DNA of 64,000 nucleotides from Myxococcus stipitatus (lineage in GTDB: Bacteria > Myxococcota > Myxococcia > Myxococcales > Myxococcaceae): assembly GCF_038561935.1 (NCBI RefSeq), contig NZ_CP102770.1, positions 2,356,001 to 2,420,000 on the forward strand, written 5' to 3'. Shown piece after piece: positions 38,697 to 56,006 of the stretch. The notes beneath the pieces were generated by a model, which saw nothing but the letters and a program-made list of their open reading frames with translations, had not been told where the DNA came from and did not search any database. The position numbers were made by a program, and so were the translations under genes. How positions within the stretch are numbered: position 1 is the first letter of the stretch; each line of letters begins with the position of its first letter.

Positions 38697-41600
38697 ATGC
38701 CAACCTCTCTCATGCGCCTTCCCCGCACCCTGGCCCTGCTCTTGGGCATCTGGGTGCTCTCCGGCTGCACCTCCACGAGCGAGCCCGAGGGCTCCTGTCC
38801 CTGCGCCGCGGGGTGGACGTGCTGCCCCGACAGCAACCTGTGCGTGACGGAGGCCTCGCGCTGCGAGCAGCTCCAGCCGAAGCCACCCGAGCTCACGGCG
38901 CCCTCGGTGCCGCGCCGGTTGACTGCCTCACCCGCACCAGGTCGCGTGGTGCTCACCTGGTTCGAGCCGGAGGACGACGGCGACAGCGCCCTCACCGGCT
39001 ACGGCGTCGGAGTCGAGCCGCGCGAGGACGGTCAGCAGGTTCAGGTGGAAGGCGACTCCGCGAGCGTGACGGGCCTGCGCGCGGGCGGCACCTACCGGTT
39101 CACCGTGGTCGCACGCAACGCGGTGGGAGTGAGCCCCGCGGCCGTGGTGGAGTCCGTGAAGCTCCCGGACGTGCCGGGTGCCCCCAGGCTGCTCTCCGTC
39201 CAGCAGGGAGACCGGCAGCTGGGGGTCGAGTGGGAGGCCCCGTCGTCCGATGGGGGCAGTGCCATCCTTCACTACGTGGTGACGGCCCGGCCGATGGGCC
39301 GGAGCATCACGGTGAGCAGCACCGAGCGTTCGGCGGTCCTCGAAGGACTGACCAATGGCGTGCTCACCACCTTCACGGTGCGCGCCGTCAACGCGGTGGG
39401 CGAGGGCCCTGATTCGGTTCCCTCCAAGGAGATGGTGTCCGCCAAGGCGCCCGGGGCGCCCGTCGCGGTGTCGGCCATACCGAACGTTCGTGGAGCATCC
39501 ATCTCGTGGAGCGCGCCGGAGGACACCGGGGGCCTGGAGGTCAGCGCCTATGTGGTGACCGCCTCGCCTGGAGGCACCGTCATGGAGGTGTATGGCCCGG
39601 AGACTCACGCCACCTTCACGCGTTTGTGGGATGGCACCGAGTACACCTTCACCGTGGCCGCGCGGAACGCGAGGGGGCAGGGGCCCGTTGCCACCTCGGC
39701 GGCCGTGCGCACGCCCTCGCACCCCGGTGCGCCCGCCTCCGTCCGTGTGGAGCCTGGGGAGCGTTCGCTCGCCATCTCGTGGGCGCCGCCTGTTTCCGAC
39801 AATGGCTCGGCCCTCACGGGCTTCACCGTGCTCGCTCAACCCTCCGGCACACGCATGGAGGTGGGAGCCGATGCGCGAGAGGTCGTGATGAAGGCGGTTC
39901 CCAGCACGCACTTGCAGGTCATCAGCGTGACCGCCCACAACGCCGTGGGCCCGGGCGACGTGGCGGTGGCTTCATCACCGGTGAGGTCTCTCCCCGCGCC
40001 CCCGGAGGTGCTCTGGTTGGAAGCCCCCGCCGAGCCGACGGGCTGTCTTTCCATCAAGTACGGCCTGATGCAGGAAGATGCGGCGCGCGTCGATATCCTG
40101 GTGGAAGTAGACCCAGAGGGAGATGGCGTCTTCCAGCGGGCCACCCAGGCTGGCGAATACCGAGCCCTGTGGTCTGGATTTCCGCCGACCGACGGGCTGG
40201 AGTCCCTCTCGACGTGGCCCTGGGGGCAGGCGCATGCCTTTCGCTGGAACCGCTCCCGGGATGTGCCCGGCGCCGCGCCGTTGGCCCAGGTGCGCGTCAC
40301 CGCCACGGTTCCAGGTGCTCGACCTGTTTCGCGCACGCTTGCGGTGCCGCTGGAGGCCGCCCAGCGCCGCTGCGACATGGAGCTGGATGCTCCTCCGGCG
40401 TTGGCTCTGCCTTATGACTCGCCAGACTTCCAGGCCCCCCTGACGAGCGGTGACTTCGACCAGGACGGAAGGCCAGACCTCATCATCGGCACCGACTACC
40501 CCTCCGGGTTCAGCTACTTGTGGGGGCGTGGCAACGGCGGCTTCGAGCTGTTCGCGGACTTCGAAACCTCCTCGACGCGCGAACATCTCGTCGCCACGGA
40601 CATGGATGGGGATGGGGTCCTGGACCTCATCGCCGCCGACCCCAGACGCTTCTGGGGCGAGTCCGTCTCCGTCTACCTGGGGCGCGGCAATGGCGACTTC
40701 CGGGAGGCCGTGGCGAGCCGGGTCCTGGACCCGGATGACGCCGCCTACCTCACGGCTCCCGTTGCCACGGACCTGGATGGAGATGAACGCCCCGAGTTCG
40801 TGGTGTCCCAGGCCAACCGCCTCGTCGTCCTTCGCCACACGGGAGAGGGGAAGATGGCCGTGGCCTTCGAGAGTCTCTTCACCTCGCGGGGGGCTGTCGT
40901 CACCGGAGACTTCGACGAGGATGGACGGCCGGACATGGTGGTGGTGGGCTCCTCCCTCGAGGTCTTCCGTGGGCGGGGCCGCCTCGAATTCACCCGCGAG
41001 CACCTGGGCTTCCTCGAGGGACGGCTCTCCGTCGCGCACGCCGCCGACTTCGACAGGGACGGCCACCTCGACATCGCCGCTCTTTCCGTCGGGACCCAGG
41101 AGTCCTCCATCCTCCTCCTGCGAGGTGACGGCGAGGGGCGCTTCGGAACCCCCTCGGTCCTGCACCACCACGCGTGGAAGCCCTCTTCCTGGCAGGCGCA
41201 CATGAGCGACCTCGCCGCGCATGACTTGGACGCTGACGGAGTCATGGACCTCGCATACGTCCATGTCGAGCGGAGCGCCGTCACCGTGCTGAGAGGGGTG
41301 GGGGATGGCACCTTCGCGCCACACGTCATCCCCACGACGGAGTCCCCCATCCGCCTCGCGGTGGCGGACTTCGACGGCAGCGGTCGGCTGGACATCGCCG
41401 TGTTCAGTCAACAGCGCCGGGTCGTGAGCGTGATTCGGGACCAGTCGTCCCCCCTCCCACCGCCGCCCATCAGCCCCGAGTTCGCGACCGGAGACTTCGA
41501 CGGCGATGGCTGGAAGGACGTGGCCTCCTGGTCGGCTGGCAATGTGCAGGTCCACCTCACCCGGAAGGGGGAAGGACTCGTGCCTCGGGGGCCTTCCCCC

Positions 41601-42515
41601 GCGCCACCGCGCGCCGGGGACCTGCTGGCAGGTCGCTTCGACGCGGGCCCCACCGAGGATTTGCTCATGAGGACCGTCTCAGGCACGCCAGCCGTCTATG
41701 GGTTGGCGCTGATGCGGGGGATGGGGGACGGAACCTTCTCGGCCGCCGAGCAGCTCCCCCTGGATGAGGTCTCCGAGGGGCGCGTCGGGTACCTGTTCGC
41801 CGCGGGGGATGTGGACGGTGATGGCGACCTCGATGTGGTCTTCCAGGCCGAGCGTGCCTCGACCGGGTATCAGACCTACTTCGTGCACCTGCTTCGCAAC
41901 CGGGGCGATGGCACTTTCGAGGATGGTGGACTGGTCGCCACCACCTCCACCCTGAATCGGCTCGTGCTGACGGACTTGAACAAGGACGGTCGAGCGGACC
42001 TGGTGGTCCTCCGTCGAGTCGGTGGGAGCTTCGAGCTCATCCTGTTCGAAGGGCGAGTGGACGGCACGCTGCGGAAGGTGCGCGAGTACACCCCTGATGT
42101 CGAGTCCTGCGATGCATCGGCACTGCTCCCCATGGACCTCAATCGTGACGACTGGGTGGACCTGTTGGTCTCGTGTGGGCAGCCCGGGGTGTTGCCGCTC
42201 ATCGGCCGGAGCGGAGTCGACTTCGCCTTCTTCGATATCGATATCCAGCCCGCCGGTGTTTCCAACCTGGTCACCGCCGCAGAGGACCTGAGCGGTGACG
42301 GGATGCCAGAGTTGCTCTCCTCAGACCTGGGTCGCCAGACCGTCTGTATCGCGCCGTCTCGGGGGGGCGGGTTCTTGTTGCCGACGATGTGCTTCGCAAG
42401 CGGCGTGTACTCCCATCGCCTGGCCGTGCTGGACGTCGACCATGACGGAGTCTCCGAGGTATTGGTGGGTGACGCCTTCGATGGTGGAGCGACCTCCCTG
42501 CTTCGTTTGAAGTGA
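38697..42515 (+). CDS. Giant lipoprotein with four fibronectin III domains and an FG-GAP/VCBS repeat array
   Basis: 1272 residues. Lipobox LSGC (Cys24), then a short Cys-rich segment CPCAAGWTCCPDSNLC. Four fibronectin type III domains follow at about 65-440, each opening with Pro-Gly-Ala-Pro or a variant (VPRRLTASPAPG, GAPRLLSVQQG, GAPVAVSAIPN, GAPASVRVEPG). After a spacer domain, about 13 FG-GAP/VCBS repeats fill about 580-1272, each with a calcium-loop motif such as DFDQDGRPDLIIG, DMDGDGVLDLIAAD and DVDGDGDLDVVFQ. They form integrin-like propellers. Expected on the outer surface, binding protein or carbohydrate in a calcium-dependent way. A strong hairpin terminator follows at 42551. Confidence 0.92.
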   Translation: MPTSLMRLPRTLALLLGIWVLSGCTSTSEPEGSCPCAAGWTCCPDSNLCVTEASRCEQLQPKPPELTAPSVPRRLTASPAPGRVVLTWFEPEDDGDSALTGYGVGVEPREDGQQVQVEGDSASVTGLRAGGTYRFTVVARNAVGVSPAAVVESVKLPDVPGAPRLLSVQQGDRQLGVEWEAPSSDGGSAILHYVVTARPMGRSITVSSTERSAVLEGLTNGVLTTFTVRAVNAVGEGPDSVPSKEMVSAKAPGAPVAVSAIPNVRGASISWSAPEDTGGLEVSAYVVTASPGGTVMEVYGPETHATFTRLWDGTEYTFTVAARNARGQGPVATSAAVRTPSHPGAPASVRVEPGERSLAISWAPPVSDNGSALTGFTVLAQPSGTRMEVGADAREVVMKAVPSTHLQVISVTAHNAVGPGDVAVASSPVRSLPAPPEVLWLEAPAEPTGCLSIKYGLMQEDAARVDILVEVDPEGDGVFQRATQAGEYRALWSGFPPTDGLESLSTWPWGQAHAFRWNRSRDVPGAAPLAQVRVTATVPGARPVSRTLAVPLEAAQRRCDMELDAPPALALPYDSPDFQAPLTSGDFDQDGRPDLIIGTDYPSGFSYLWGRGNGGFELFADFETSSTREHLVATDMDGDGVLDLIAADPRRFWGESVSVYLGRGNGDFREAVASRVLDPDDAAYLTAPVATDLDGDERPEFVVSQANRLVVLRHTGEGKMAVAFESLFTSRGAVVTGDFDEDGRPDMVVVGSSLEVFRGRGRLEFTREHLGFLEGRLSVAHAADFDRDGHLDIAALSVGTQESSILLLRGDGEGRFGTPSVLHHHAWKPSSWQAHMSDLAAHDLDADGVMDLAYVHVERSAVTVLRGVGDGTFAPHVIPTTESPIRLAVADFDGSGRLDIAVFSQQRRVVSVIRDQSSPLPPPPISPEFATGDFDGDGWKDVASWSAGNVQVHLTRKGEGLVPRGPSPAPPRAGDLLAGRFDAGPTEDLLMRTVSGTPAVYGLALMRGMGDGTFSAAEQLPLDEVSEGRVGYLFAAGDVDGDGDLDVVFQAERASTGYQTYFVHLLRNRGDGTFEDGGLVATTSTLNRLVLTDLNKDGRADLVVLRRVGGSFELILFEGRVDGTLRKVREYTPDVESCDASALLPMDLNRDDWVDLLVSCGQPGVLPLIGRSGVDFAFFDIDIQPAGVSNLVTAAEDLSGDGMPELLSSDLGRQTVCIAPSRGGGFLLPTMCFASGVYSHRLAVLDVDHDGVSEVLVGDAFDGGATSLLRLK

Positions 42516-42832: not shown

Positions 42833-44187
<1,355 letters not shown>

Positions 44188-44191
<4 letters not shown>

Positions 44192-45132
44192 CGAAGCGAC
44201 GTGCCCCTCAGCGCCTGGGCGGCCTGGCGTCCCCAGGTGCTGAGCGGGAACAGGCCGGGGAGGGTGGACAGGTCGTCACCAGGTCCTTCCTCGGCGAAGC
44301 CCGGGTTGCGCAGGGCCCCGGTGCGCACGACCCCCGCGCGCGGCAGGGCCCGGCAGAGGGCGCGCTGCACCTGCCTGCGTGCGCGCGGCGTGTTGGGCTG
44401 GAGCCGCGCGAACCAGAGCGTGAGCGGCTGGAGCAGCCGTCCTCCCCGGCGCGTGAAGCCCATCTGGTAGAGCGAGGACAGCCGCTCCCGCCAGTGCTCC
44501 TGGAAGTGGGGCGTCTCACCCACGAAGAGCGGGCGTCCCTCCTCCTCCACGACATACACCCCGCCCCCGTCGGGGAAGCGGGTGAACGGATAGCGCTCCA
44601 CCGTCACCTTCGACCACGAGAGTCGCGGCCCGGACGTGAGGAGCTCCTCCTGCGTATCGGGCTCGGTGGGCTCCTCCACGGGCTCCTCGGGCAGGTCGTC
44701 CACCGGGGCGTCATCGGACGCAGGTGGCTCGGGCGGAGGCGCGGAGCCTCCGGACGCGCTGGTCCTCGGCGGTGGCGGTGGAGGAGGTGGGGGCGGCGGG
44801 GGTGGGCTCGCCTCGGGCGGAGGCTCGAGAGGTGGCTCGATGACGAGCGGTGGCCGGTAGCCCACGCCCAGGAACCGCCAGGGGCGGTGCCGAGGCCAAC
44901 GCCGCTTGGGATTCGGCTTCCACAATCCCCGGCCCGCCTTCGTCGCGACGCGCTTCTTGGCGCCCGCGCGCTGGGTGGTGGTGACCCGAACTCCTCCCGG
45001 TCGCCGGCTGCTGCTCGCGGCCCGCGTGTTGCCCCGAGGCTTGCGCTGGGGCGCGGCGCGAGGCCGCTGGACGAAGGACTCCTCCGCCCCCTCGTGCTCT
45101 CGCAGGTCTTCACCTTCATGCCACTCGTTCAT
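44188..45132 (-). CDS. Proline-rich protein with GIY-YIG-like C-terminal domain
   Basis: 314 residues, last gene of the five-gene operon, overlapping the PLP enzyme gene by 17 bases. The first 105 residues are Arg/Lys/Pro-rich, with an FLGVGYRPP motif at about 88. A run of about a dozen prolines (around residue 110) and an acidic segment link to the C-terminal 150 residues. There GGGVYVVEEEGRPLFVGET followed by HFQEHWRERLSSLY resembles the two strands and the helix of GIY-YIG nucleases, but the second motif is FVG and the catalytic set is not complete, so nuclease activity is doubtful. Exact role unknown. Confidence 0.75.
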
Positions 45133-46207
45133 GACGTGTCCTCTCGTGGTGTTCGTCGTGGAGCGCCTCGGCCAGGAGGTCCACGGCTTGGGTCAGCTCC
45201 GGCGCGCCGTGCCGGGTGGTGAGGATGAAGCTCACCGAAACCTCCGGCCCGCAGCGCGAGCGCTGGAGCACGGTGCGAACGCCCTTGTGGCGCAGCCGCT
45301 CATGGACCCGGCGCGGGTCCACCCCCGAGGGCAGCACCACCCGCTGCACGGGGAACTGCCCGCCCATGGCGCTCAGCCCCGCCAGCCGCAACCGCTCGCG
45401 GAAGTGCGCCACGCGCTGGGCCAGCGCGCGGCGAAGCGAGTCGCCCTCCCGATGATTGATGGTGAGGGCCCGCTGCGCCGCATGGAGGTCCGCGACGGAC
45501 GGCGGACTGCAATGCACCCGCGTCTCGCCGCGTGCCTCGATTCGAGCCAACACCCGGGCATCTCCCGCCACGGCCGCCATGGGCACCCCCAGCGCCTTCG
45601 CCAGCGAGCCGCACCACAAGAGGTCCGGCCCTCGAAGCCCCTCCCACCGCAGCGAGCCCCCTCCCCCCACGCCCAGCGGCAATCCCCTGTGCCGTCGCCC
45701 CAGCACGCCCACGGCCTGCGTGTCATCGACGATGAGCAGCCCCCCATGCGCGCGGACCAGGTCCAGGTACGCATCGAGGGGCGCCAGCTCCCCGCACCCC
45801 GGGCACCAGCCATCGCAGACCACCACTGGCAGACGCCCCGGCTCCAACGAGAGGATCCTCCGCGCCAGGCTCTCGGGCGAGTGGTGCTGGAACCCGCGCG
45901 CGGGGACACCTCGCGCGGCCATGGTCTCGATGCCCCACTTCGCTATCGGATAGGCGCCGTCGTCCCAGAACAAGGAGACACGGCGCCCCTCCAGCCCGCT
46001 GAACACATCCCAGAACACATGCAGCGTGGACCGGGAGAGCAGCGCGCGTTCACAGCCCACCAGCTCCGCCAGGTCTTGCTCCGTCCTGGCCACGGAGGCG
46101 GGTTCCTCCAGGATGGCGGGCGCGCCCAGGGTGAGCTGCTCCCAGGGCTCGAGCGTCCGGCTGGCGTGCACCAGCCCCAGGTAGAGCGAGGAGGTGAAGT
46201 CGAGCAC
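45116..46207 (-). CDS. PLP-dependent alpha-oxoamine synthase-like enzyme
   Basis: 363 residues of fold type I. The cofactor lysine lies in CGSLAKALGVPM, the pyridine-binding Asp in VDDTQAVGVLG, and the order of motifs matches the family of 8-amino-7-oxononanoate synthase and 2-amino-3-ketobutyrate ligase. That family joins an amino acid to an acyl thioester with loss of carbon dioxide. No biotin or heme genes are nearby, so it may modify a product of this operon. The start is GTG 46207 with gggagc about 9 bases upstream, 14 bases after the 604-aa gene. The N-terminus seems short for the family (starts MLDFTSSLYLG). Confidence 0.85.
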   Translation of the reverse strand: MLDFTSSLYLGLVHASRTLEPWEQLTLGAPAILEEPASVARTEQDLAELVGCERALLSRSTLHVFWDVFSGLEGRRVSLFWDDGAYPIAKWGIETMAARGVPARGFQHHSPESLARRILSLEPGRLPVVVCDGWCPGCGELAPLDAYLDLVRAHGGLLIVDDTQAVGVLGRRHRGLPLGVGGGGSLRWEGLRGPDLLWCGSLAKALGVPMAAVAGDARVLARIEARGETRVHCSPPSVADLHAAQRALTINHREGDSLRRALAQRVAHFRERLRLAGLSAMGGQFPVQRVVLPSGVDPRRVHERLRHKGVRTVLQRSRCGPEVSVSFILTTRHGAPELTQAVDLLAEALHDEHHERTRHERVA

Positions 46208-46221
46208 GGGCGTCGAGCTCC

Positions 46222-48036
46222 CTACCGCCGGCGCTGGCTCGCGAGCCGATTGCGCAGGTGGACCGAGGGTGGCACATCGCGCTCGGACAGCCGCTGCGGG
46301 TCGGTGAGCTCCACGGTCAGGTCCACGCCGGTGACGGCGCGATACGCGTGGATGTAGCCCTGAATCTCGGGCCGCCAGTAGCGCGCCCAGTTCGCGGCCT
46401 GGGCCGGGTCATTGGAGATGCTCCAGGCGCCGTAGCGCACCGACAGCAGCACCTGCTCGCCGAAGACGCCCAGCTCGTGGAAGTGCACGGAGCTGATGTC
46501 CGTCCAGCCCTGGAGCGTCTTCATCGCATCCACCCGGTCCATCCACGGCTCGGGGTAGGGGACCATCACCCGGCCGCCGAGGAACTCGCGCATCTCCGGG
46601 CGCGCCAGCAGCCACTGCTGGATGAGCATCTCCTGCCGCGCGGTGGACGGCAGGTCGCCGAACTGGTTGTGGGCGCCCTGCGCCAGCAGGTAGTGCGTCT
46701 CCTTGAGCGCGTTGAGCACCGGGAAGCCGTCCGACACCACGGTGGTGTCGTCGTCCTTGCGGAAGAACTGCACGCAGAGGTGGAGCAGGTTGTGGAAGGC
46801 CTCCAGGAACTTGGAGCGCCGGTCCGCGGTGCGAATCCCCGCCACCGCCTTGCCGTGCAGCGTGATGCCGTATTCGTGGTCGTACTCGTACGCGCGGCGC
46901 ACGACGCTCAAGCGGCGCTGCTCGTCCTGGAAGTACCCCCACAGCACGCTGTTGAGCGGCCGCAGCGGGTCGATCTCCAGGTTCGCCAGCGGGTCCCGCA
47001 GGCCCGGGCCGCGCACGTTCTGGAAGCGCTGGCTGATGGCGTTCACCGCCTGGACCAGCATTCCCTCCTCGTGCCAGTAGTTCCAGATGAGCTCGAGGAG
47101 GAGCGGCTGGCTCAGCTTCTTCTGGAGGATGTCGTAGCAGTTCGTGACGTCGTCATCGCTCAGGGACGACAGCCCGGAGAGCGGCACCTCGGGGAACTTG
47201 TTCCGGATGAGCGCCAGGTACGGAAGCGCCGCGTCCACGCTTCCGTTCACGTCCACCAGGTAGTCCTTGTAGAGCTGGTTGAAGTCCTTGTCGTTGGGAA
47301 GGGGCCGCCCCAGCCGGCCGCTCTCCTCGGCACCATCCAGCTTCTCGAGCAGCTTCGAGAAGTCCACCAACACACCGGTGTTCAGCACGAGGAAGCTCTC
47401 GGTCAGGGCCCGCAGCTTCCGGTAGATGTCCACCCCGGAGAGGCGAGGCCGGGACGTCGAGGAGACCGTGGGGTTCGGCGGAGGGGTCGAGTGGAAGAGC
47501 CTGTCGTCGATGAACTCGCTGAACTTGGTGAACGACAGCTCGTTGGACGTCTTCCGGATGACCATCCAGAGGATGGCGTCGGTGGTGTACGGGTGCTGCG
47601 TGCGCTGCAGCCCCACGCGGACGAAGCTGTCGGAGCTGTCATTCAGCGCGAGCGGCTTGAGCTCGTTGATGGCCTCGCGGACCGCCTGCCGGACATCGGG
47701 GACTCCGCCAGCGAGCGCGAGCACCCGCTGCTTGGCCTCCGCGATGGACACGGGGTCCTCGTTGAGGTCCCGGGTGTATTCGCGCAGCGTGACGCGCACG
47801 GAGAGCTCGCGCTCCTGCGCCATGGGCGGCAGCGTCCAGGTCGTGGAGGCCTCGACGTCGGTGCCTCGGAGCTGGGCCTGGCGGGGCGTGACGGTGCCTT
47901 CGTCCACGCTCCATTCGAAGACCCGATGCGCGGCCTCGGGGTTGGGGGTATCGGCGGTGGCGGTGAGCGTCACCTGGGCGCCGGACGGTCCTGGGGTGAC
48001 GGTGGTGCGAGAGACGACGAGTGTGACGCGAGGCAT
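46222..48036 (-). CDS. Uncharacterised 604-aa protein of the five-gene operon
   Basis: No family recognised. The first 100 residues form a beta-sandwich-like domain (VTLVVSRTTVTPGPSGAQVT, FEWSVDEGTV, WTLPPM) similar to Ig-type modules. The rest is mostly helical with many aromatic residues (FLEAFHNLLHLCVQFFRKDD, ALKETHYLLAQGAHNQFGDL, WARYWRPEIQGYIHAYRA). The C-terminus is basic (RNRLASQRRR). No signal peptide or membrane helix. Strong site GGAGGAAG upstream of ATG 48036; 15 bases after the HExxH gene. By size and position it could be a structural or carrier protein of the system. Confidence 0.82.
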   Translation of the reverse strand: MPRVTLVVSRTTVTPGPSGAQVTLTATADTPNPEAAHRVFEWSVDEGTVTPRQAQLRGTDVEASTTWTLPPMAQERELSVRVTLREYTRDLNEDPVSIAEAKQRVLALAGGVPDVRQAVREAINELKPLALNDSSDSFVRVGLQRTQHPYTTDAILWMVIRKTSNELSFTKFSEFIDDRLFHSTPPPNPTVSSTSRPRLSGVDIYRKLRALTESFLVLNTGVLVDFSKLLEKLDGAEESGRLGRPLPNDKDFNQLYKDYLVDVNGSVDAALPYLALIRNKFPEVPLSGLSSLSDDDVTNCYDILQKKLSQPLLLELIWNYWHEEGMLVQAVNAISQRFQNVRGPGLRDPLANLEIDPLRPLNSVLWGYFQDEQRRLSVVRRAYEYDHEYGITLHGKAVAGIRTADRRSKFLEAFHNLLHLCVQFFRKDDDTTVVSDGFPVLNALKETHYLLAQGAHNQFGDLPSTARQEMLIQQWLLARPEMREFLGGRVMVPYPEPWMDRVDAMKTLQGWTDISSVHFHELGVFGEQVLLSVRYGAWSISNDPAQAANWARYWRPEIQGYIHAYRAVTGVDLTVELTDPQRLSERDVPPSVHLRNRLASQRRR

Positions 48037-48051
48037 GTTCTTCCTCCAAAG

Positions 48052-49395
48052 CTAGATGACGGAGTTGCGCGGCAGCGCGGGCGCCTGGAGCGCCGACGCG
48101 AGAGCCCGTGACTTGGGGAGCGAGGCGCAGGTCTCGGACGCGTCGAGCGTGCTGCGCAGCGCCCAGTACTTGAGAAGCTCGGCCAGGACCTGGCTCTCCT
48201 CCTCGGGGGAGAGCACGCCATCGGCCCTGGCCTGACCGATGACCGCGAACACCAACGACGGCGGCGACTCCTGGATGCCGGAGCGCTTGCGGCGCCACTG
48301 CCGGTAGAGCGCGCCGAGCCGCGCCGGCTGCCGCTCCTGTGTCTTCAACACCTCCGCGAGCGTGTGGCCGCGCAAGGCCGCGGGGCGGTGCTCCAGGAGG
48401 AACCGCACGAAGCGAGGCAGGCTGGCCTCGAGCAGCGCCAGCGTCTCCCGTGAGCGCTCGGAGGCCCCGCGCACGGGATAGAGCTCCTCCCACAGCCGCG
48501 CCAGCCGCGCCCACTGCGGATGGGGAAACAGCTGCGCGCCCAGCTCGCAGCTCAGCTTCACGCGAATCCACGGGATGGGGTGCGGGTCCTCCGGGGTGAG
48601 CCGGAACACGAACGGCCTGGGCAGGCTCACCACGCCCATCAGTCCCACCGTGGACGTGACACCCACGCGGGCCACCGACCAGACATCGGCGATGACCTCC
48701 GAAATCCACCGCTCCCACAGGCCGAAGGCGAAGGCCTCCTCGAGCGTGTCGTGCGTCAGCGCGTGCAATGCGGTGCGCATCGACGCGACCAGGTCGAGCA
48801 GGGCCGCGCCCTGGTGGCCCACCTCGTGGAAGAGCGAGGAGGCGAGGCTGCTGCCAATCATCCGCTCACGTGGGATGCGGATGAGGGCGGCGGGGTTGGC
48901 GCCTCCGCCGGGCAGTCGGGTGCGTGCGCGCCGGATGGCGGCGCCGGGGCCTCGGGCCAGGTAGCAGATGACGGGCGGGACGTCGTAGTAGCCGGGCAGC
49001 TCCAGCGCGTCGCGAGAGAGCACGTCCAGTCCCGCCAGCCACACGCCGCTCTCCGCCTCGCTGCGCTGGCTGAGGGCCTCGCTGAAGATGTCGAAGTGCG
49101 ACAGCACGACGTTGAAGCGCAGTCGCAGGAACGTGAAGCGCCGCTGGGCTTCCGCGGGTGGTGCCCAGCGGCCTTCTGGGCCTTCCACCCAGGCGATGTA
49201 CTGGTGGAGTTGGGTCCGCAGCTCCCGGCGCCCCTGGACCAGGTAGCGCTCCACCGCGGCCTGAGCCTCCATGGAGAGCGTGGCGGCGGGCACCATGGTC
49301 TCCGACATGGCGAAGGACTTGATGCGCTCCAGCCGGGTGAGCAGGGCGCGAGCCTCCTGCGACAACATCCAGGAGGCGAAGGAGCTGGCGGCCAT
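48052..49395 (-). CDS. HExxH-containing putative zinc metallopeptidase
   Basis: 447 residues. The segment LASSLFHEVGHQGAALLD carries HExxH (His190, Glu191, His194), and about 40 residues on, WISEVIADVWS gives Glu233 and Asp237 as third-ligand candidates, the spacing seen in gluzincin-type zincins. The surroundings are helical; there is no signal peptide. The C-terminal region contains AVIGQARADGVLSPEEESQVL, an EF-hand-like or TerB-like helical pair. It starts 6 bases after the end of the glycine-zipper gene, so the two are coupled. A natural hypothesis is that it cleaves the protein encoded just before it. Confidence 0.8.
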   Translation of the reverse strand: MAASSFASWMLSQEARALLTRLERIKSFAMSETMVPAATLSMEAQAAVERYLVQGRRELRTQLHQYIAWVEGPEGRWAPPAEAQRRFTFLRLRFNVVLSHFDIFSEALSQRSEAESGVWLAGLDVLSRDALELPGYYDVPPVICYLARGPGAAIRRARTRLPGGGANPAALIRIPRERMIGSSLASSLFHEVGHQGAALLDLVASMRTALHALTHDTLEEAFAFGLWERWISEVIADVWSVARVGVTSTVGLMGVVSLPRPFVFRLTPEDPHPIPWIRVKLSCELGAQLFPHPQWARLARLWEELYPVRGASERSRETLALLEASLPRFVRFLLEHRPAALRGHTLAEVLKTQERQPARLGALYRQWRRKRSGIQESPPSLVFAVIGQARADGVLSPEEESQVLAELLKYWALRSTLDASETCASLPKSRALASALQAPALPRNSVI

Positions 49396-49401
49396 GGCGG
49401 G

Positions 49402-50031
49402 CTAGACTCCGTGGAGGATGATCTTGTTGCCCTTGCGCACCCAGCGGCCGCTGGTCGCCGTGCCCGCGCGCGCAGGCGTGGCGGCGCCCGCGAGCCCGGG
49501 GGCATAGCGCTGGATGGCCTGCTGCATGGCGGCGCCCACCGCCTGCTGTGGCGAGGCCCCTTCCCCCGCGGAGAGCGCCGCGCGAGAGGCATTGCCGGCC
49601 AGGCGCACGAACTGCTTGGCGACCTCGAACTCGCGGTCCTCCTGGCTCAGCCCCTCCAGCTCCAGCCCGAAGGCCTGGCCCACGCGCTGGCCCAGCTTGC
49701 CGCCGACAGCGCCGCCCAGGCCCGGGAGCACCATGTTGCCGACCGCGCGGCCCCCGGCGACGAGGCCCGCCTTGGCCAGGCTCTTGAGCTTCGCGCCCAG
49801 CGCCTGCCCCGTGGGGCTGGACACCACCTTGCGGATGGCGGAGCCCGCCCTCTTGATGAGGTTGCCCAGGAACTGCTCGAGCTCCTGGTCATTGCCCACC
49901 TCCAACAACTCCATGGCGAGCTCGTTCAGCTCGCTCTCGTTGAACACCTCCCCCCATTCCTCCTCGGCGTTGAACTCGAACTCGAACGACTCGTCTTCCT
50001 GCTCCTGATACGTACGATCCACGTCATGCAT
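49402..50031 (-). CDS. Acidic, glycine-zipper small protein, first gene of the operon
   Basis: 209 residues with four zones. An acidic start with alternating Phe/Glu (SFEFEFNAEEEW, 15-26) and an amphipathic helix (ESELNELAMELLEV). A basic segment (LIKRAGSAIRKVV, 58-70). A glycine-zipper hydrophobic core (about 88-122, GLVAGGRAVGNMVLPGLGGA then VGGKLGQRVGQAFGL). A tail ending GRWVRKGNKIILHGV. Glycine-zipper segments often insert in membranes or oligomerise. No signal peptide, so any export must be by another route. It is the promoter-proximal gene of the minus-strand unit and divergent from the radical SAM gene, which would fit a substrate or precursor protein. I do not recognise a named family. 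Confidence 0.82.
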   Translation of the reverse strand: MHDVDRTYQEQEDESFEFEFNAEEEWGEVFNESELNELAMELLEVGNDQELEQFLGNLIKRAGSAIRKVVSSPTGQALGAKLKSLAKAGLVAGGRAVGNMVLPGLGGAVGGKLGQRVGQAFGLELEGLSQEDREFEVAKQFVRLAGNASRAALSAGEGASPQQAVGAAMQQAIQRYAPGLAGAATPARAGTATSGRWVRKGNKIILHGV

Positions 50032-50205
50032 GGGTCAGGTCCTCGTGTGGTGGCCCGGCAGATGTGGCCGCCGGTTGAGGAGGGCCGTAGCAGCGCGTGT
50101 GCCAGCCCCCAGGACGCGGTGTTCCCCCTGGGCAGGAGGGCCCCGGCGCGAAGCACGCTTCGGTGGCGTGGGGGGGCGGGGATATCCAGCGAAGGGGGCT
50201 TCGGT

Positions 50206-50228
50206 GCCTGCTCCCGCGGGAGGCAGGC
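50206..50228. other. GC-rich hairpin in the divergent intergenic region
   Basis: gcctgc (50206-50211) pairs with gcaggc (50223-50228); inside, tccc pairs with ggga, leaving one bulged g. Two gggccc palindromes follow at 50229 and 50241. It lies 90 bases before the radical SAM start, within its likely leader, so attenuation or transcript protection is possible. The whole 286-base gap (50032-50317) holds no gene. Confidence 0.4.
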
Positions 50229-50317
50229 GGGCCCTGGCCCGGGCCCTCAACCCATTCCGTCGTCGCGGCCGCGAATCGTCTACTGTGGGCGGCCTCGGAA
50301 AGGTCGGTGTTCAGTCC

Positions 50318-52036
50318 ATGGGTGGTGGTCGTGTGCTCTCGCCAGTGCTTCTCGTCGGTGCCGGAACGGGGGAGGCCACGTGCGGCATCCTCTACCTGGC
50401 GAGCTACCTGCGCCGAGGAGGCATCGAGGCCTTCGTCCGCCTCTGGGACGGAGACGAGACGCCCGCCGAGGTCGTGCGCTCGCTCGAGGGCCTGGTCCGC
50501 CGGGTGCGCCCGAAGCTGGTGGGCATCAGCCTCAAGTGGTTCCACCACGTGGACCGCGCGCTGCTCATCGCCCGGACGCTGCGGAAGATAGACCCGTCGA
50601 TTCGCATCGTCGTCGGCGGCAACTCCGCGTCGTACTGGTGGCGAGAGCTGAGCGCCTATGACTGCATCGACCACGTCGTCCGGGGCGACGGCGAGGTGCC
50701 GCTCCTGTCCATCTGCCAGGGCAACGCTGCGCCGCCCAACTGCGTGACGCGGACTCCGGATGGACGGCCCACCCGGCTGCCCCTGGGCTACGTGCAGGGC
50801 GCGACCAACAGCGAGGACATCTACTACTCACACTTCGACGAGCTCTTCCTGAGCCAGCTGGACCTGAACTCCTTCTCGGGCTGGGTCGCGCCGGGCAAGG
50901 GCTGCGGAGAGAACTGCCTGTATTGCGGCGGAGCCCGTGGCAACCAGAAGGCCGCCTTCGGCCGCGCGAAGCCGTTCCTGCGCGCCGAGGAGAGCGTGCG
51001 CAAGGACCACCAGGAGATTGCCTCCCGGACGTGGCAGATGCGCTACGACTTCGCGGGCAGCTCGGCGGAGTTCCTCGGGAGCACCTGGGCCGGCGTGGAC
51101 CTGTCGCGCCACTGCTGCACGTACTTCCTCTGGGGCGTGCCGCGCATCGAGCTGGTCGACGCGCTGGCCCGCACCTTCGAGCGCGTCTACATGGTCGTGG
51201 ACATCGGCTGCTTCTCCGAGCAGCAGCGCCTGGAGCAGATGAAGCGCGGCCTGCTCAAGCCCTGCGCGAAGGACTCGGAGCTCATCGAGCTCATCGAGGG
51301 CAGCCGCCGCCACCCGAACCTGGCCGTCGAAATCTCCGGCATCGGAGGACTGCCCTTCGCCAGCCAGGCCACGCTCGCCGAGGAGGTGAAGCTGGTGGAG
51401 CGCATCATCGACCTCGACTGCGTGATTGGCTATCAGCGGCTCGAAGCGCAGCCGGGCGCCCTCGTCACCGAACACCCCGCGCGCTTCGACATGGTGAGCG
51501 AGGCGAAGACCTTCACCGAGTTCCTCGACTACTTCGAGCGGCGCGAGCCTGGGGACGTGTCCGTGCCCATGATTCGCTTCAAGGACGCGAAGCTGGAGGC
51601 CGCGGTGCAGCGCACCTCCGACCAGGTGGACGCGATGGCCTGGAAGCACCGCGATGCCCGGCGGCAGGTCAGCGTCAACGGACGCACCCGCCTGGTGAAC
51701 ACCGCCGCTCCCGCGCGGCGCTTCACGCTGGGGGATTGGCTGGGCAGTCACCGCGCGCCCGCGCGATTCGCCGGAGAACAGGTGACGGTCGTCCGCTCCG
51801 TGGATGGCATCACCCTGAGCTGTGCGCCCACGCTGCAACCTCGCAAGTTCTCCGACCCGGCCCTGGTGCAAGGCGAGGATGGCGCCATCCTGCTCGCGGC
51901 GCTCAGCACCTTCGAGCGACCCACCACGGTGTCCAGCGCGGTGAGCCAGCTCGGCGCCAAGGCGCGGTTGGACCCGCATTCCGCTCAGGAAGTGATTGAC
52001 CATCTGGTGGATGGAAGATTCCTCCAGCCCGCGTGA
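50318..52036 (+). CDS. B12-binding domain/radical SAM protein with C-terminal winged-helix-like tail
   Basis: 572 residues. N-terminal cobalamin-binding-like Rossmann domain about 8-135 (VLLVGAGTGEATCGILYLAS, VGISLKWFHH, IRIVVGGNSA), although the usual DxHxxG is not obvious. Radical SAM core about 185-450 with the cluster motif GCGENCLYCGG (Cys196, Cys200, Cys203), which holds [4Fe-4S] and cleaves S-adenosylmethionine. The last 60 residues (STFERPTTVSSAV, EVIDHLVDGRFLQP) look like a winged helix, similar to peptide-recognition or PqqD-like tails in peptide-modifying enzymes. ATG 50318 starts the Rossmann strand; the longer upstream reading is low-complexity. It is divergent from the glycine-zipper operon, which suggests a joint task. 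Confidence 0.9.
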   Translation: MGGGRVLSPVLLVGAGTGEATCGILYLASYLRRGGIEAFVRLWDGDETPAEVVRSLEGLVRRVRPKLVGISLKWFHHVDRALLIARTLRKIDPSIRIVVGGNSASYWWRELSAYDCIDHVVRGDGEVPLLSICQGNAAPPNCVTRTPDGRPTRLPLGYVQGATNSEDIYYSHFDELFLSQLDLNSFSGWVAPGKGCGENCLYCGGARGNQKAAFGRAKPFLRAEESVRKDHQEIASRTWQMRYDFAGSSAEFLGSTWAGVDLSRHCCTYFLWGVPRIELVDALARTFERVYMVVDIGCFSEQQRLEQMKRGLLKPCAKDSELIELIEGSRRHPNLAVEISGIGGLPFASQATLAEEVKLVERIIDLDCVIGYQRLEAQPGALVTEHPARFDMVSEAKTFTEFLDYFERREPGDVSVPMIRFKDAKLEAAVQRTSDQVDAMAWKHRDARRQVSVNGRTRLVNTAAPARRFTLGDWLGSHRAPARFAGEQVTVVRSVDGITLSCAPTLQPRKFSDPALVQGEDGAILLAALSTFERPTTVSSAVSQLGAKARLDPHSAQEVIDHLVDGRFLQPA

Positions 52037-52085: not shown

Positions 52086-55000
52086 ATGAAGACATTCATG
52101 TCGGGCTGGGTTGCCCTCCTCGCCGTGGCGGTGGTGTCGTCGCCAGGGGACGCGGAGGCCGTCAGTCGAAGCTCCGCGTCGTCCACCGTCTCCACGCTCC
52201 CCAACGGCTCTTTCGAGACCCCCGCGCTGCCCGCCTCGCCTGGGTATCAGATCGCGCCCGCGGGGTCGGGCTGGACGTTTGTGAATGGCGCGGGCTTCTC
52301 GCGCAACAACACGGCCTTCACCTCGGGCAACCCGGTGGCGCCGCAAGGCGCCCAGGTGCTCCTCCTCCAGGGGGTGGCTTCGGCTTCCCAGACGTTGAGC
52401 CTGCCCGCGGGCTCGTATGTCTTCAGCTTCATGGCGGCGCAGCGAGGCAACCTCCCCAGCACCCAGGTGCTGGAGCTGCGCGTCGACGGCAGCCCGCGCC
52501 AGTCCTTCACGCCCACGGGAGCCTCGTATCAGCGCTTCACCACGGCCCCCATCTCCCTGGCGTCCGGCGCGCACACGGTCGCCCTGCACGGGCTCAATCC
52601 CCAAGGCACGGACAGCACCGCCTTCGTGGATGACTTCACCGTGACGCGCGTGCGGGACGTCTCCCTCTCCGGCTTCGAGTCCCCCGCGCTCCCCGCCTCT
52701 CCGGGCTATGTCTATGCGCCCGCCGGAGGGCCTTGGACCTTCGAGCCCGGGGCGGGGTTGAGCCGCAATGCCACGGCCTTCACCGTCGGCAATCCCGTGG
52801 CGCCGGAGGGAGGGCAGGTGCTGTTCCTCCAGGGGGCCTCCTCGGCCTCCCTCAACGTGGCGGTGCCGCGCGGCTATCACCGCTTCCGCCTCAAGGCGGC
52901 GCTCCGGGGAACGGACCCGACGCAGCCTCCGGCGAAGGACATCGTCATCGCCGTCAACGGGACGAAGGTGGGGCACTTCCGCCCGGCCAGCACGCAGTAC
53001 GTGGAGCAGGTCTCCACCGTGCTGTGGTTGGAGGCGGGCACCGTCACCGTCCGATTGACGGGCGTGGACACCGCGCCGGGCGACCACACGGGCCTGGTGG
53101 ATGACCTGCGGCTGGAGTCCGTGCACGACTGGAAGGACCCGCTCGTCTGGGGAGGCGCGGTGCCCGGGCCCAGCGACGACGCCACCGTGGTCCTGGGCAG
53201 CGCCGTCTGCATCGACGGTGTCCTCAACCCCCGGAGCATCACGGTGCGCGGGGAGCTGCTGGGCGTGCAGAACCGGAACGTCGACGTCACCACGCAGTAT
53301 GTGATGGTGATGGGCGTCGACTCGCTCCTGGAAGTGGGGCAGGAGCGCACGCCCTATCTCTCCAAGGCGACGTTCACCCTCAACGCCACGGACACCCAGC
53401 TGGACCTCATGGGCATGGGCAACAACTTCCTGGGCGCCATGGGGAGTGGAACCCTCCACCTGCACGGAGAGGAACGGGTGAGCTGGACGCGGCTCGCGCA
53501 GAACGTGGCGGTGGGCGCCACGGACCTCTACCTGGCGCAGCCCGTGAACTGGCGGGCCGGTGACAGCATCGTGGTCGTGTCCAGTCACCTCGACTGGAAC
53601 GAGGCCGAGCAGCGCACCATCGCCAGCGTGGACCCGGGCGGCACGCGGGTGACCTTGTCGAGCGCGCTCTCGTTCGCGCACTCCGGGGTGGTGAAGACGT
53701 TTGCTTCACCCACGCGGAGCTGGACGGTGGACCTTCGCGCCGAGGTGGGCCTGCTCACCCACAACATCGTGGTGAAGGGGCACGCCACCCTCGCCAACGC
53801 CTCGGGGTACGGCGGCCACATCATGGTCATGGACAAGTCCCGCGCGTACGTCAGCGGCGTGGAGCTGGCCAACATGGGGCAGAAGGCGGCCCGTGGCCGC
53901 TATCCCTTCCACTGGCACATGCTCGCGGAGCTGGGCGAGGGGCAGTACTTCCGGAGCTCCAGCGTCCACCACTCCTACAACCGGGCCATCACCATCCATG
54001 GCACGGAGAGCACCCGGGTGGAGAACAACTTCTTCTACGACCACATTGGCCACGGGGTGTTCCTGGAGGACGGCAGCGAGCGCTTCAACGTCATCAAGGG
54101 CAACGTGACGCTGCTCACGCGCAGGCCCAAGCCGCTGGAGGCCGTCACCCCGTCCGACAACGAGCTGGATGTCATCCAGAACCGCACGCCTGCGAGCTAT
54201 TGGATCACGAACCCCGAGAACACCTTCGAGGACAACGTCGCGGCGGGCACCCAGGGGACAGGCTTCTGGTTCGCGTTCCCCACGAAGCCCATGGGCGCCT
54301 CCGAGACCCACCCGCGCTTCAAGGACCTGAAGCCCGACTCGCGGCCGCTCATCTCCTTCAAGGGCAACAGTGCCCACAGCACCATGTCCGGGTTCGACAT
54401 CTTCGACCGGTTGTCCCCAGACCACTCCATCATCCCCAACCATGGCTGGAACGACGACAGCCTTCACCTCATCGAGAACAGCACCTGGTACGCGAACGCG
54501 CTGGGCATCTACACCGGCATCGGCGTGGGCGGTCCGACGGACAACCTCATCTTCCGGAACAACATCCTGGTCGACAACGTGTGGAACTCGATGCTGGCCA
54601 GCTACAGCGTCATCGAGCAGAGCGTGTTCGTGGCGGACTCGGGGGCGAACCTCCTCCCGAGCGGCCTCGAGCGCTTCGCCTACCGCGTGTATGACGGCGC
54701 GGGCCAGGTGCGCGACTCGCACTTCATCGGCTGGAATGCCCCCAACGCGAACTTCCTCATCAACACGGGCGCGGCCGTCAAGCACCCCAACCACCTGTTC
54801 ACGAACAACACGGTGTCGCCCGCGGGTCCGCCGCGCATCCGCCTGGAGGACTTCGACATCCCGCCGACGAAGAACACCGGCGTGGGAGACCCCGGGCATC
54901 CGCGCTACTGGTCCATCGCGGTGCGAGACACCACGGGTGGCATCACCGGCAAGCCCAACACGACGATTGTCTCCAGCCAGCCGTTCATGCGCGTGGGGGA

Positions 55001-56006
55001 TGAGTACCGCCCGCCCAACTGGACGAACGCGTACCGCAGCGACCACCGGTTCGTGATGTCCCGGCTCACCTACCTGGAGGACTTCCCGGACACGCCCAAC
55101 ATCGCCTGCACGCGCGAGAAGGCGGGGACGCCCACGGCCTCCGTCTTCTACATCGACAACGACGGGTATCGCGAATGGCACCAGCTCCCGTTCATCGTCA
55201 ACGAGGGCTTCGAGTACACCTACGCCTATCAGTCGCTCCCGCCGGGCAAGCGGGTGACGATGACGATGGAGGATGCCTCGGTGGGCGACTTCTACGTCGC
55301 GCGCTTCAAGGACTTCGGGAAGCTGGGGAACCTGCGGTTCTTCTCCAACCAGTCGAGCTTCACGCCGCACACTTCGCTCGCGAATCTCCGCGCCGCCACG
55401 AGCTCGGGGTACTTCGTCCAACCAGGGGGCGACGTGTACGTGAAGGCCGTCGCCACGGGAAGGACGCAGGGCTACATCCTCTACTGGGACACGCCCTTCG
55501 TGGTGCCGCCGCTCGACACGGACGGCGACCAGGTGACGGATGCGGTGGAGATCAGCAGGAGCCGCCACCCGTTCGACGCCTCGGACCTGCTGGCGGGATT
55601 CGACACCGCGGGTGACTTCGAGGACTGGACGGTCTTCTCCAACGTGAGCGGGCAGGCCGTGGCGGGAGGCGTGTTGACGGGCACCTCCACCGGCAACGGA
55701 GACGCGCTGGTCGTCAACAGCGCCTTCAACTTCGCCGCGAGCCGCGTCCCGACCATCCAGGTCCGCATGAAGGCGACCCAGAGCACCGGGGTCCAGGTCT
55801 TCTTCGCCACGGACACGCAGCCGGGCTTCTCCGCCGCGCGTGTGGCCAATGGCTGGTACAGCGGCGGCGGCGCCTATCAGGTGGTGACGTTGGACATGGC
55901 GGGAGTGCCCGGCTGGTCGGGCACCATCACGGACCTCCGCCTGGACCCGGTGTCGGGCGCGGGCATCCAGTTCGACATCGACTCGATTCGCGGACTCGGG
56001 CCGTAG
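52086..56006 (+). CDS. Secreted G8-domain/right-handed beta-helix protein (CEMIP-like)
   Basis: 1306 residues. Signal peptide about 1-24. Two related beta-sandwich modules (about 36-190 and 196-345) both start with FE(T/S)PALPASPGY and are probably carbohydrate-binding. A G8 domain follows (about 348-470: WGGAVPGPSDDATVVLGSAV, ITVRGELLG), then a right-handed parallel beta-helix (about 560-900) with RYPFHWHMLAELGEGQYF at about 605 and ITIHGTESTRVENNFFYDH. This G8-plus-helix order is that of CEMIP/TMEM2, linked to hyaluronan breakdown in animals. A calcium-binding type 3 motif LDTDGDQVTDAVEIS (about 1140) leads to a C-terminal beta domain. Likely acts outside the cell on polysaccharide. Confidence 0.9.
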   Translation: MKTFMSGWVALLAVAVVSSPGDAEAVSRSSASSTVSTLPNGSFETPALPASPGYQIAPAGSGWTFVNGAGFSRNNTAFTSGNPVAPQGAQVLLLQGVASASQTLSLPAGSYVFSFMAAQRGNLPSTQVLELRVDGSPRQSFTPTGASYQRFTTAPISLASGAHTVALHGLNPQGTDSTAFVDDFTVTRVRDVSLSGFESPALPASPGYVYAPAGGPWTFEPGAGLSRNATAFTVGNPVAPEGGQVLFLQGASSASLNVAVPRGYHRFRLKAALRGTDPTQPPAKDIVIAVNGTKVGHFRPASTQYVEQVSTVLWLEAGTVTVRLTGVDTAPGDHTGLVDDLRLESVHDWKDPLVWGGAVPGPSDDATVVLGSAVCIDGVLNPRSITVRGELLGVQNRNVDVTTQYVMVMGVDSLLEVGQERTPYLSKATFTLNATDTQLDLMGMGNNFLGAMGSGTLHLHGEERVSWTRLAQNVAVGATDLYLAQPVNWRAGDSIVVVSSHLDWNEAEQRTIASVDPGGTRVTLSSALSFAHSGVVKTFASPTRSWTVDLRAEVGLLTHNIVVKGHATLANASGYGGHIMVMDKSRAYVSGVELANMGQKAARGRYPFHWHMLAELGEGQYFRSSSVHHSYNRAITIHGTESTRVENNFFYDHIGHGVFLEDGSERFNVIKGNVTLLTRRPKPLEAVTPSDNELDVIQNRTPASYWITNPENTFEDNVAAGTQGTGFWFAFPTKPMGASETHPRFKDLKPDSRPLISFKGNSAHSTMSGFDIFDRLSPDHSIIPNHGWNDDSLHLIENSTWYANALGIYTGIGVGGPTDNLIFRNNILVDNVWNSMLASYSVIEQSVFVADSGANLLPSGLERFAYRVYDGAGQVRDSHFIGWNAPNANFLINTGAAVKHPNHLFTNNTVSPAGPPRIRLEDFDIPPTKNTGVGDPGHPRYWSIAVRDTTGGITGKPNTTIVSSQPFMRVGDEYRPPNWTNAYRSDHRFVMSRLTYLEDFPDTPNIACTREKAGTPTASVFYIDNDGYREWHQLPFIVNEGFEYTYAYQSLPPGKRVTMTMEDASVGDFYVARFKDFGKLGNLRFFSNQSSFTPHTSLANLRAATSSGYFVQPGGDVYVKAVATGRTQGYILYWDTPFVVPPLDTDGDQVTDAVEISRSRHPFDASDLLAGFDTAGDFEDWTVFSNVSGQAVAGGVLTGTSTGNGDALVVNSAFNFAASRVPTIQVRMKATQSTGVQVFFATDTQPGFSAARVANGWYSGGGAYQVVTLDMAGVPGWSGTITDLRLDPVSGAGIQFDIDSIRGLGP

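Follow-up and report, generated by a model that had tools for sequence, protein, structure and literature searches.

We analysed a 64,000-nucleotide stretch of Myxococcus stipitatus DNA (hereafter the window; contig NZ_CP102770.1, positions 2,356,001 to 2,420,000), taken from a 10.2-Mb genome of the same family as Corallococcus carmarthensis, and found in it a multi-gene cassette that recurs in distant phyla together with a regulatory gene of its own. On sequence comparison, we give even odds to the proposition that the unit moves horizontally, brings its own switch, and acts as an effector cassette, either against other bacteria or in self-lysis. In the window it contains five packed minus-strand genes. 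The first encodes a 209-aa glycine-zipper protein (GZ, 49402-50031) and is followed by genes for a 447-aa HExxH zinc peptidase-like protein (PEP, 48052-49395), a 604-aa protein of unknown family (U604, 46222-48036), a 363-aa pyridoxal phosphate (PLP) enzyme related to 8-amino-7-oxononanoate synthase (AONS) (45116-46207), and, in a position of variable content that we call the slot, a 314-aa GIY-YIG-like protein with an acidic N-terminus (44188-45132). A convergent plus-strand gene (42833-44191) encodes, by profile matches, an AAA+ sigma-54 activator (enhancer-binding protein) with a GAFTGA loop and a Fis-type helix-turn-helix (HTH). The slot and PLP genes overlap by 17 bp, the gaps further along the row are 14, 15, and 6 bp, and the slot and activator genes share 4 bp. 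An initial annotation, made from this DNA alone, had described the five-gene row, and the genes are real: homologues keep the order and strand in other genomes, except at one rearranged locus (L064, 3268-11340, in genome G778) that carries PEP, rpoN, a fused double GZ, U604, and an amidase. That annotation had also proposed a conserved multi-gene set, which the comparison confirmed, and had drawn its boundary wrongly: a divergent B12/radical S-adenosylmethionine (SAM) gene counted as a member falls outside, and the activator gene and a control region (50089-50203) had been overlooked. The set does appear to be undescribed, as had been supposed. GZ, PEP, and U604 have no family over the cut-off in Pfam, NCBIfam, or PADLOC, and a literature search of titles and abstract openings, with subscription journals mostly outside its coverage, found no account of this cassette.

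The boundary of the unit was set by tblastn of all neighbour genes against relatives. Among 18 loci, GZ was present in 18, PEP in 17, U604 in 16, the activator in 16, and the PLP enzyme in 12; a slot protein similar to the GIY-YIG-like protein of the window was found in six, the radical SAM gene and rpoN in four each, and an amidohydrolase (PF04909), which was not found in the window, is a member of the cassette in eight. GZ, PEP, U604, and the activator occur together in all 16 loci uncut by contig ends, and these span Myxococcota, Geotalea, Rhizobium, Ensifer, Paraburkholderia, and Actinomycetia. Contig ends cut L004 and L024; the rest of L004 (Agromyces) lies on another contig, with a second GZ, PEP, U604, the PLP enzyme, the amidohydrolase, and the activator. 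A nineteenth locus (G1083), whose contig ends after PEP, has GZ, PEP, the activator, and rpoN. Because the loci were found via GZ or PEP, their joint presence is partly a matter of selection; U604 and the activator never served as locus-finding queries. Eleven Myxococcota genomes gave a GZ match, and the expected association of this family with the peptidase was borne out in ten (nine with a strong peptidase, one cut by a contig end), the eleventh (G146) having a weak 125-residue GZ match; conversely, all nine Myxococcota genomes with strong PEP have GZ. The GZ and PEP searches use a first-look filter, which sets the sensitivity at which absences hold; with GZ as query the Paraburkholderia phymatum cassette escaped notice, and the PEP query recovered it. 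Pairwise distances of PEP, U604, and the activator are correlated (r 0.73-0.85), which we did not use as support because shared species history yields the same.

The cassette very probably has its own sigma-54 regulatory unit, with a promoter predicted to depend on the activator and RpoN. The control unit before GZ consists of two CGAA-N6-TTCG dyads and then TGGCAC-N6-TGC or a near form. In the window, pattern comparison placed the distal dyad at 50190-50203, the proximal dyad at 50149-50162, and the predicted sigma-54 promoter (TGGCACACGCGCTGCT, minus strand) at 50089-50104, that is, -73 to -58 from the GZ start codon. The distance between the dyads is 41-43 bp, with exceptions in L022 (32 bp) and L063 (20 bp). 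The strict dyad-dyad-promoter unit was found in 16 of the 18 loci; it occurs once in the window and not at all in 100 mononucleotide shuffles of it. Searched for in 16 genomes or records, the tandem dyad had a single match, located at the cassette, in 11 of them, among these the whole genome from which the window is taken; G062 has two, both inside the cassette, one before each GZ copy. Matches away from the cassette were limited to one in G196, three further ones in G127, and the single match in G836, where the cassette dyads are 20 bp apart and so outside the pattern. The G778 genome has no tandem dyad, and the backwards control pattern was not found in any of the 16 genomes or records. Given their position and co-occurrence, we infer that the two dyads are candidate sites of the cassette activator.

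The activator itself fits this assignment. A G[AS]FTGA loop is present in 13 of 13 activators tested (GSFTGA in L002 and L064), and Walker A was recognised by pattern in 12 of them, the thirteenth (L114) reading GPTGTGKE. The N-terminus is receiver-like by eye (GAxDVLxW) and otherwise unclassified, with no Pfam receiver match up to E 1 and, by eye, no conserved acidic residue at the expected phosphorylation site. In each of four Actinomycetia cassette genomes tested there was one activator match at E < 1e-50, located in the cassette; in nine genomes without the cassette no match was better than 3.6e-8, a value typical of AAA+ proteins in general, and the activator family found such proteins in all 14 control genomes too. 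With an AAA+ activator, G[AS]FTGA, a Fis-type HTH, dyads, a -24/-12 promoter, and RpoN, the arrangement has the parts of known sigma-54 regulation by enhancer-binding proteins, from which it differs in that the cassette activator appears to serve one operon and that Actinomycetia cassettes hold the sigma factor.

That cassettes in Actinomycetia carry their own sigma factor can be stated with high confidence. A PF04552 search showed that in Nocardioides and Agromyces the gene immediately upstream of GZ is rpoN, and two cassettes found through PEP (G836 and G778) also contain it. The prediction was tested on G1083, from a fresh sample, and rpoN was present, so that five of five Actinomycetia cassettes have the gene; it was absent from nine of nine genomes with a distant PEP paralogue only. 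Among 296 genomes of the class, a sample seeded with G195, rpoN exceeded the cut-off in three (G195, G778, and G836), which are the cassette carriers. A 2025 survey concludes that Actinomycetota are effectively without functional RpoN and discounts divergent matches in Alloactinosynnema, Modestobacter, and Citricoccus (PMC12316311). In our phylum-wide search 18 of 396 Actinomycetota genomes were over the rpoN cut-off, 15 of them strongly (L028-L042) and presumably from classes other than Actinomycetia, and we therefore limit the claim of sigma-54 absence to the class sample. RpoN was found in the genomes of the window, Geotalea, Nocardioides, and Agromyces, and was absent from the Rhizobium and Ensifer plasmid records, whose chromosomes were outside the search. 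Four cassette RpoNs (410-437 aa) pass the Pfam DNA-binding and core-binding domains and have an RpoN box of the form [AS]RRTVxKYR. In a tree with eight chromosomal RpoNs (two of ten chromosomal stretches, L132 and L133, were dropped for want of an RpoN-box frame) a branch (99/98) separates the four from the others; the tree carries a long-branch warning, and L064 is a long branch. The Actinomycetia cassette is complete in having one sigma factor, one activator, and one operon, the promoter of which conforms to the sigma-54 consensus.

Strong PEP matches were found in 9 of 189 Myxococcota genomes, in 1 of 128 genomes of the phylum of Geotalea (Geotalea itself), in 3 of 394 Actinomycetia genomes, in 3 of 342 genomes of the Agromyces order (one shared with the Actinomycetia sample), and in four of the five plasmid records with a match (Rhizobium twice, Ensifer, and Paraburkholderia). 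This patchy occurrence and the location on large plasmids suggest that the cassette moves horizontally, between distant phyla. A phage origin was rejected: GZ has no match in phages, PEP has none in viral contigs, and the PHROG matches of GZ are weak and to tape-measure, tail-lysin, and unknown proteins.

Around distant PEP paralogues a locus of another kind was seen (L109, 2437-9034; L069, 3670-11281; L066, 4610-13538). It comprises a large protein with a GZ-like stretch, a peptidase, a gene where U604 would be, and proteins whose N-terminus is repetitive (tyrosinase+PG_binding_1 in L069, NlpC/P60 in L066); no rpoN was found in the genomes of L066 and L069. Kinship with the cassette is clear for the peptidase (E 6e-30) and suggestive for GZ (54.8%, 1.2e-4); comparison did not show it for U604 and the gene in its place. 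The window genome has a distant PEP paralogue far from the cassette (G000:C1:8980306-8981097; L104, L108; E 1.7e-19), and such paralogues are also found in many genomes of the genus of C. carmarthensis. On a plasmid of Paraburkholderia sp. PGU19 (L115, 5661-14889) a GZ-like match, an E-W repeat protein, and a distant PEP paralogue are grouped; this locus also carries a cassette-type amidohydrolase (61% identity), with no activator match within 16.8 kb.

The fifth gene of the row, after the PLP enzyme, is recognisable by similarity in Myxococcota only, and its place is taken by different enzymes elsewhere. The slot protein is GIY-YIG-like in the window, three same-genus genomes, G127, Corallococcus, and Geotalea; it is PG_binding_1+GIY-YIG in Ensifer, PG_binding_1+DUF2272+Glucosaminidase in Rhizobium, and Amidase_2 in G778, these last three being the only slot proteins over the Pfam cut-off, and G836 has a weak Tox-REase-9 match. 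The scan covered all slots except those of L005, L020, L021, L022, L114, and the second Agromyces contig. The Geotalea GIY-YIG match is just under the cut-off; by locus, the values are 1.5e-5 in L027 (over the cut-off), 6e-4 in L003 (just under), and 0.035 in L002 (under), and the L023 slot protein has no GIY-YIG match. For the window protein the GIY-YIG-like label of the initial annotation is retained on the motif seen by eye and the proteins in the same slot; a Pfam search up to E 1 did not return the family. Two slot proteins match phage endolysin families (L026, E 2e-54; L064, 1.8e-10). The slot is an exchangeable enzyme domain (GIY-YIG, Glucosaminidase, or Amidase_2) in a fixed context, and it is predicted to be toxic.

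The fixed front of the cassette begins with GZ, which has an acidic N-terminus, a helical bundle, three GxxxG pairs, and a C-terminal GRWVRxGxxIILxGV hairpin. The pairs, at 75/79, 94/98, and 106/110, are near-invariant among homologues, and all 16 alignment rows share Gly195, Trp197, Arg199, Gly201, and Gly208 within the C-terminal motif. An acidic N-terminal stretch is present in 20 of 20 GZ copies (D/E 0.19-0.39 vs 0.06-0.18 in the remainder; acidity and hydropathy values given here are simple counts, not the output of trained predictors), and several other loci carry GZ in tandem copies. The acidic N-termini, shared by six of eight slot proteins and by eye often made up of E-aromatic repeats, may be a trafficking tag. 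The AlphaFold model of GZ is a helical bundle with the C-terminal hairpin (pLDDT 70.6, low-confidence stretch 92-113); its best VIA Z was 6.1, a score commonly given by helical bundles, and the GZ profile had three matches only among solved structures, all at E 0.11 or worse. PEP, directly after GZ in most loci, has the motif HEVGHQ in the window, and every one of the 13 homologues tested keeps HE.GHQ and, further downstream, [SG]E..[ASP]D; with HExxH and a downstream Glu, here a putative ligand, it would belong to the gluzincin zinc peptidases. A match of PEP to PAS_4 is under the cut-off (0.017), and its profile found nothing up to E 1 among solved structures. U604 is modelled with an N-terminal beta sandwich and a helical remainder at low confidence (mean pLDDT 57). 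Its structure matches are led by fibronectin-type beta sandwiches at the N-terminus (best E 0.033), and its profile had one match at E 1 among solved structures; with a low pLDDT and weak matches we make no further claim for it.

In the mechanism that we propose, the activator would bind the dyads and, on a signal received via its N-terminal domain and probably not by phosphorylation, open the sigma-54 promoter. GZ would then act on the membrane through its glycine zipper, the slot enzyme (a nuclease or peptidoglycan hydrolase) would be the damaging payload, PEP would process GZ or the payload, most likely by cleaving it, and the PLP enzyme and amidohydrolase would supply an accessory small molecule or modification. 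Basal output from sigma-54 promoters is close to nil, so that leak is avoided, which suits genes that are harmful when leaky; the need of a harmful payload for such a promoter would explain why rpoN is carried into bacteria that lack sigma-54. The putative membrane action of GZ is wholly an analogy, drawn from effectors that contain glycine zippers. EsxX and TelE (type VII) and Tde1 (type VI), whose zippers are described as serving membrane attack or translocation, likewise have serial GxxxG motifs within a small region associated with the toxin; the cassette showed no LXG or type VI context, and GZ is in tandem in several loci. Polymorphic toxin systems share with the cassette a fixed locus front and an exchangeable nuclease or wall-hydrolase gene. 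They differ from it in that the cassette has a dedicated sigma-54 switch, that the window has no immunity gene, and that no known trafficking domain or secretion machine was recognised.

A harmful-effector function seems to us equally open to acceptance and rejection, and a number of observations count against it or against the proposed switch. There is no immunity gene in the window, where the slot gene runs into the activator gene, nothing recognisable as a secretion system lies beside the cassettes, and a plain toxin cassette would not be expected to include the PLP enzyme or the amidohydrolase. The GZ model had no structural match at E 0.001, and the window GZ has neither a strong transmembrane segment (maximum 19-residue hydropathy 1.04) nor a hydrophobic N-terminus. 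Pfam returned nothing for the window slot protein up to E 1, the nuclease match of the L063 slot protein is weak (0.0042, under the cut-off), and the acidic N-terminus is missing from the slot proteins of L027 and L063. Regarding the switch, no dyad match accompanies the promoter-like sites that precede PEP and GZ in L064; in L114 the promoter is weaker, and one of the two dyads is strict and the other degenerate; G1083 (L141) shows a single dyad with its promoter-like site. In four of four cassette RpoNs the activator-interacting domain falls short of the 23.8-bit cut-off, at 14.7-17.1 bits. Some of these points are accommodated by altruistic or developmental self-lysis, in which a holin-like GZ and a slot hydrolase or nuclease would dismantle the cell's own structures. 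Self-lysis needs no immunity gene and no secretion system was recognised; the two endolysin-like slot proteins (L026 and L064) and the avoidance of leak under sigma-54 control also agree with it. We nevertheless consider it rather unlikely: the slots of the window, Corallococcus, and Geotalea are GIY-YIG-like and not lysins, the window GZ has no clear transmembrane segment, and the PLP enzyme and amidohydrolase are left unexplained.

The radical SAM gene (50318-52036, plus strand) flanks the cassette and lies outside the conserved unit. Its open reading frame is real, with a B12-binding domain (Pfam) and CGENCLYC by eye; as originally drawn, from 50030, the frame would have its first 96 codons within the region of sigma-54 control that serves the divergent operon, and ATG 50318 would be a likelier start. 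All four loci of the 18 that have the gene belong to the window's own genus, in which G123 lacks it; L023, with 317 bp upstream only, is not informative. The initial annotation had made this gene part of a peptide modification and release system, comparable to the pathways for ribosomally synthesized and post-translationally modified peptides (RiPPs), and had named two observations that would speak against it. One of them was made, in that the radical SAM gene accompanies the others in 4 of 18 loci and in one genus only; the other was not, and the GZ-peptidase association held. No radical SAM RiPP model reached its cut-off (rSAM_ocin_1, 22 bits vs 282; TIGR04190, 72.6 vs 500), and GZ, a conserved family of more than 200 residues modelled as a helical bundle, is not a short leader-core precursor. 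The likeness to radical SAM RiPP pathways comes down to a B12/radical SAM gene that adjoins the cassette in one genus; it is not conserved with GZ and there is no short precursor. The RiPP-like reading is not supported. A fifth slot of changing content and control by sigma-54 indicate another kind of logic. A maturation system without the radical SAM enzyme, in which PEP and the PLP enzyme would process GZ with the C-terminal GRWVRxGxxIILxGV as recognition element, would suit the five C-terminal residues invariant in 16 of 16 rows and the place of PEP straight after GZ in most loci (17 of the 18 loci contain PEP, and a contig end truncates the remaining one). We find it decidedly unlikely, since the radical SAM gene is restricted to 4 of 18 loci, the PLP enzyme is absent from 4 of 16 uncut loci, no transporter was recognised, and the size and modelled fold of GZ do not fit a short precursor.

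Beyond the radical SAM gene, and adjoining it, lies a gene for a 1306-aa protein with G8 and CEMIP beta-helix domains (52086-56006), kept with the radical SAM gene in the same-genus loci L017 and L018 and present as fragments only in L019. On the other side of the cassette, 38697-42515 encodes a 1272-aa putative lipoprotein whose repeats resemble fibronectin III and FG-GAP by eye.

The PLP enzyme is over the cut-off for Pfam Aminotran_1_2 and is, by sequence, a fold-type I enzyme of the alpha-oxoamine synthase family. Its profile matched AONS structures in the PDB at 5.2e-34 and the CAI-1 autoinducer synthase at 4.8e-18. Lys204 and Asp161/162 are invariant in eight of eight homologues, and we take their catalytic roles to be those of AONS. 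Assignment as a bioF equivalog was rejected (76.7 bits vs the curated cut-off of 426.45), as was a defence system, for which the PADLOC scan gave a single 0.054 match, to the PLP enzyme. Small-molecule signalling, in which the alpha-oxoamine synthase and the amidohydrolase would make an aminoketone-type signal for the N-terminal domain of the activator, could draw on this family membership and the CAI-1 synthase match, but is improbable, with the PLP enzyme lacking from 4 and the amidohydrolase from 8 of the 16 uncut loci and AONS a far better match than the CAI-1 synthase.

On the reading as a self-switched effector cassette, this work opens a cross-phylum unit with three unmatched families, and its payload slot suggests an attack on DNA or the cell wall. 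The cassette RpoN makes it testable whether sigma-54 functions with the actinobacterial core polymerase and why a mobile element would need sigma-54. We put at slightly less than an even chance the proposal that a full sigma-54 system (sigma factor, activator, enhancer sites, and promoter) in one mobile operon brings non-leaky control into a class otherwise without it, for the sole purpose of silencing a possibly lethal GZ device until it is called for. If it is true, the divergent actinobacterial RpoN matches discounted in the 2025 survey (PMC12316311) would be working sigma factors of such cassettes.

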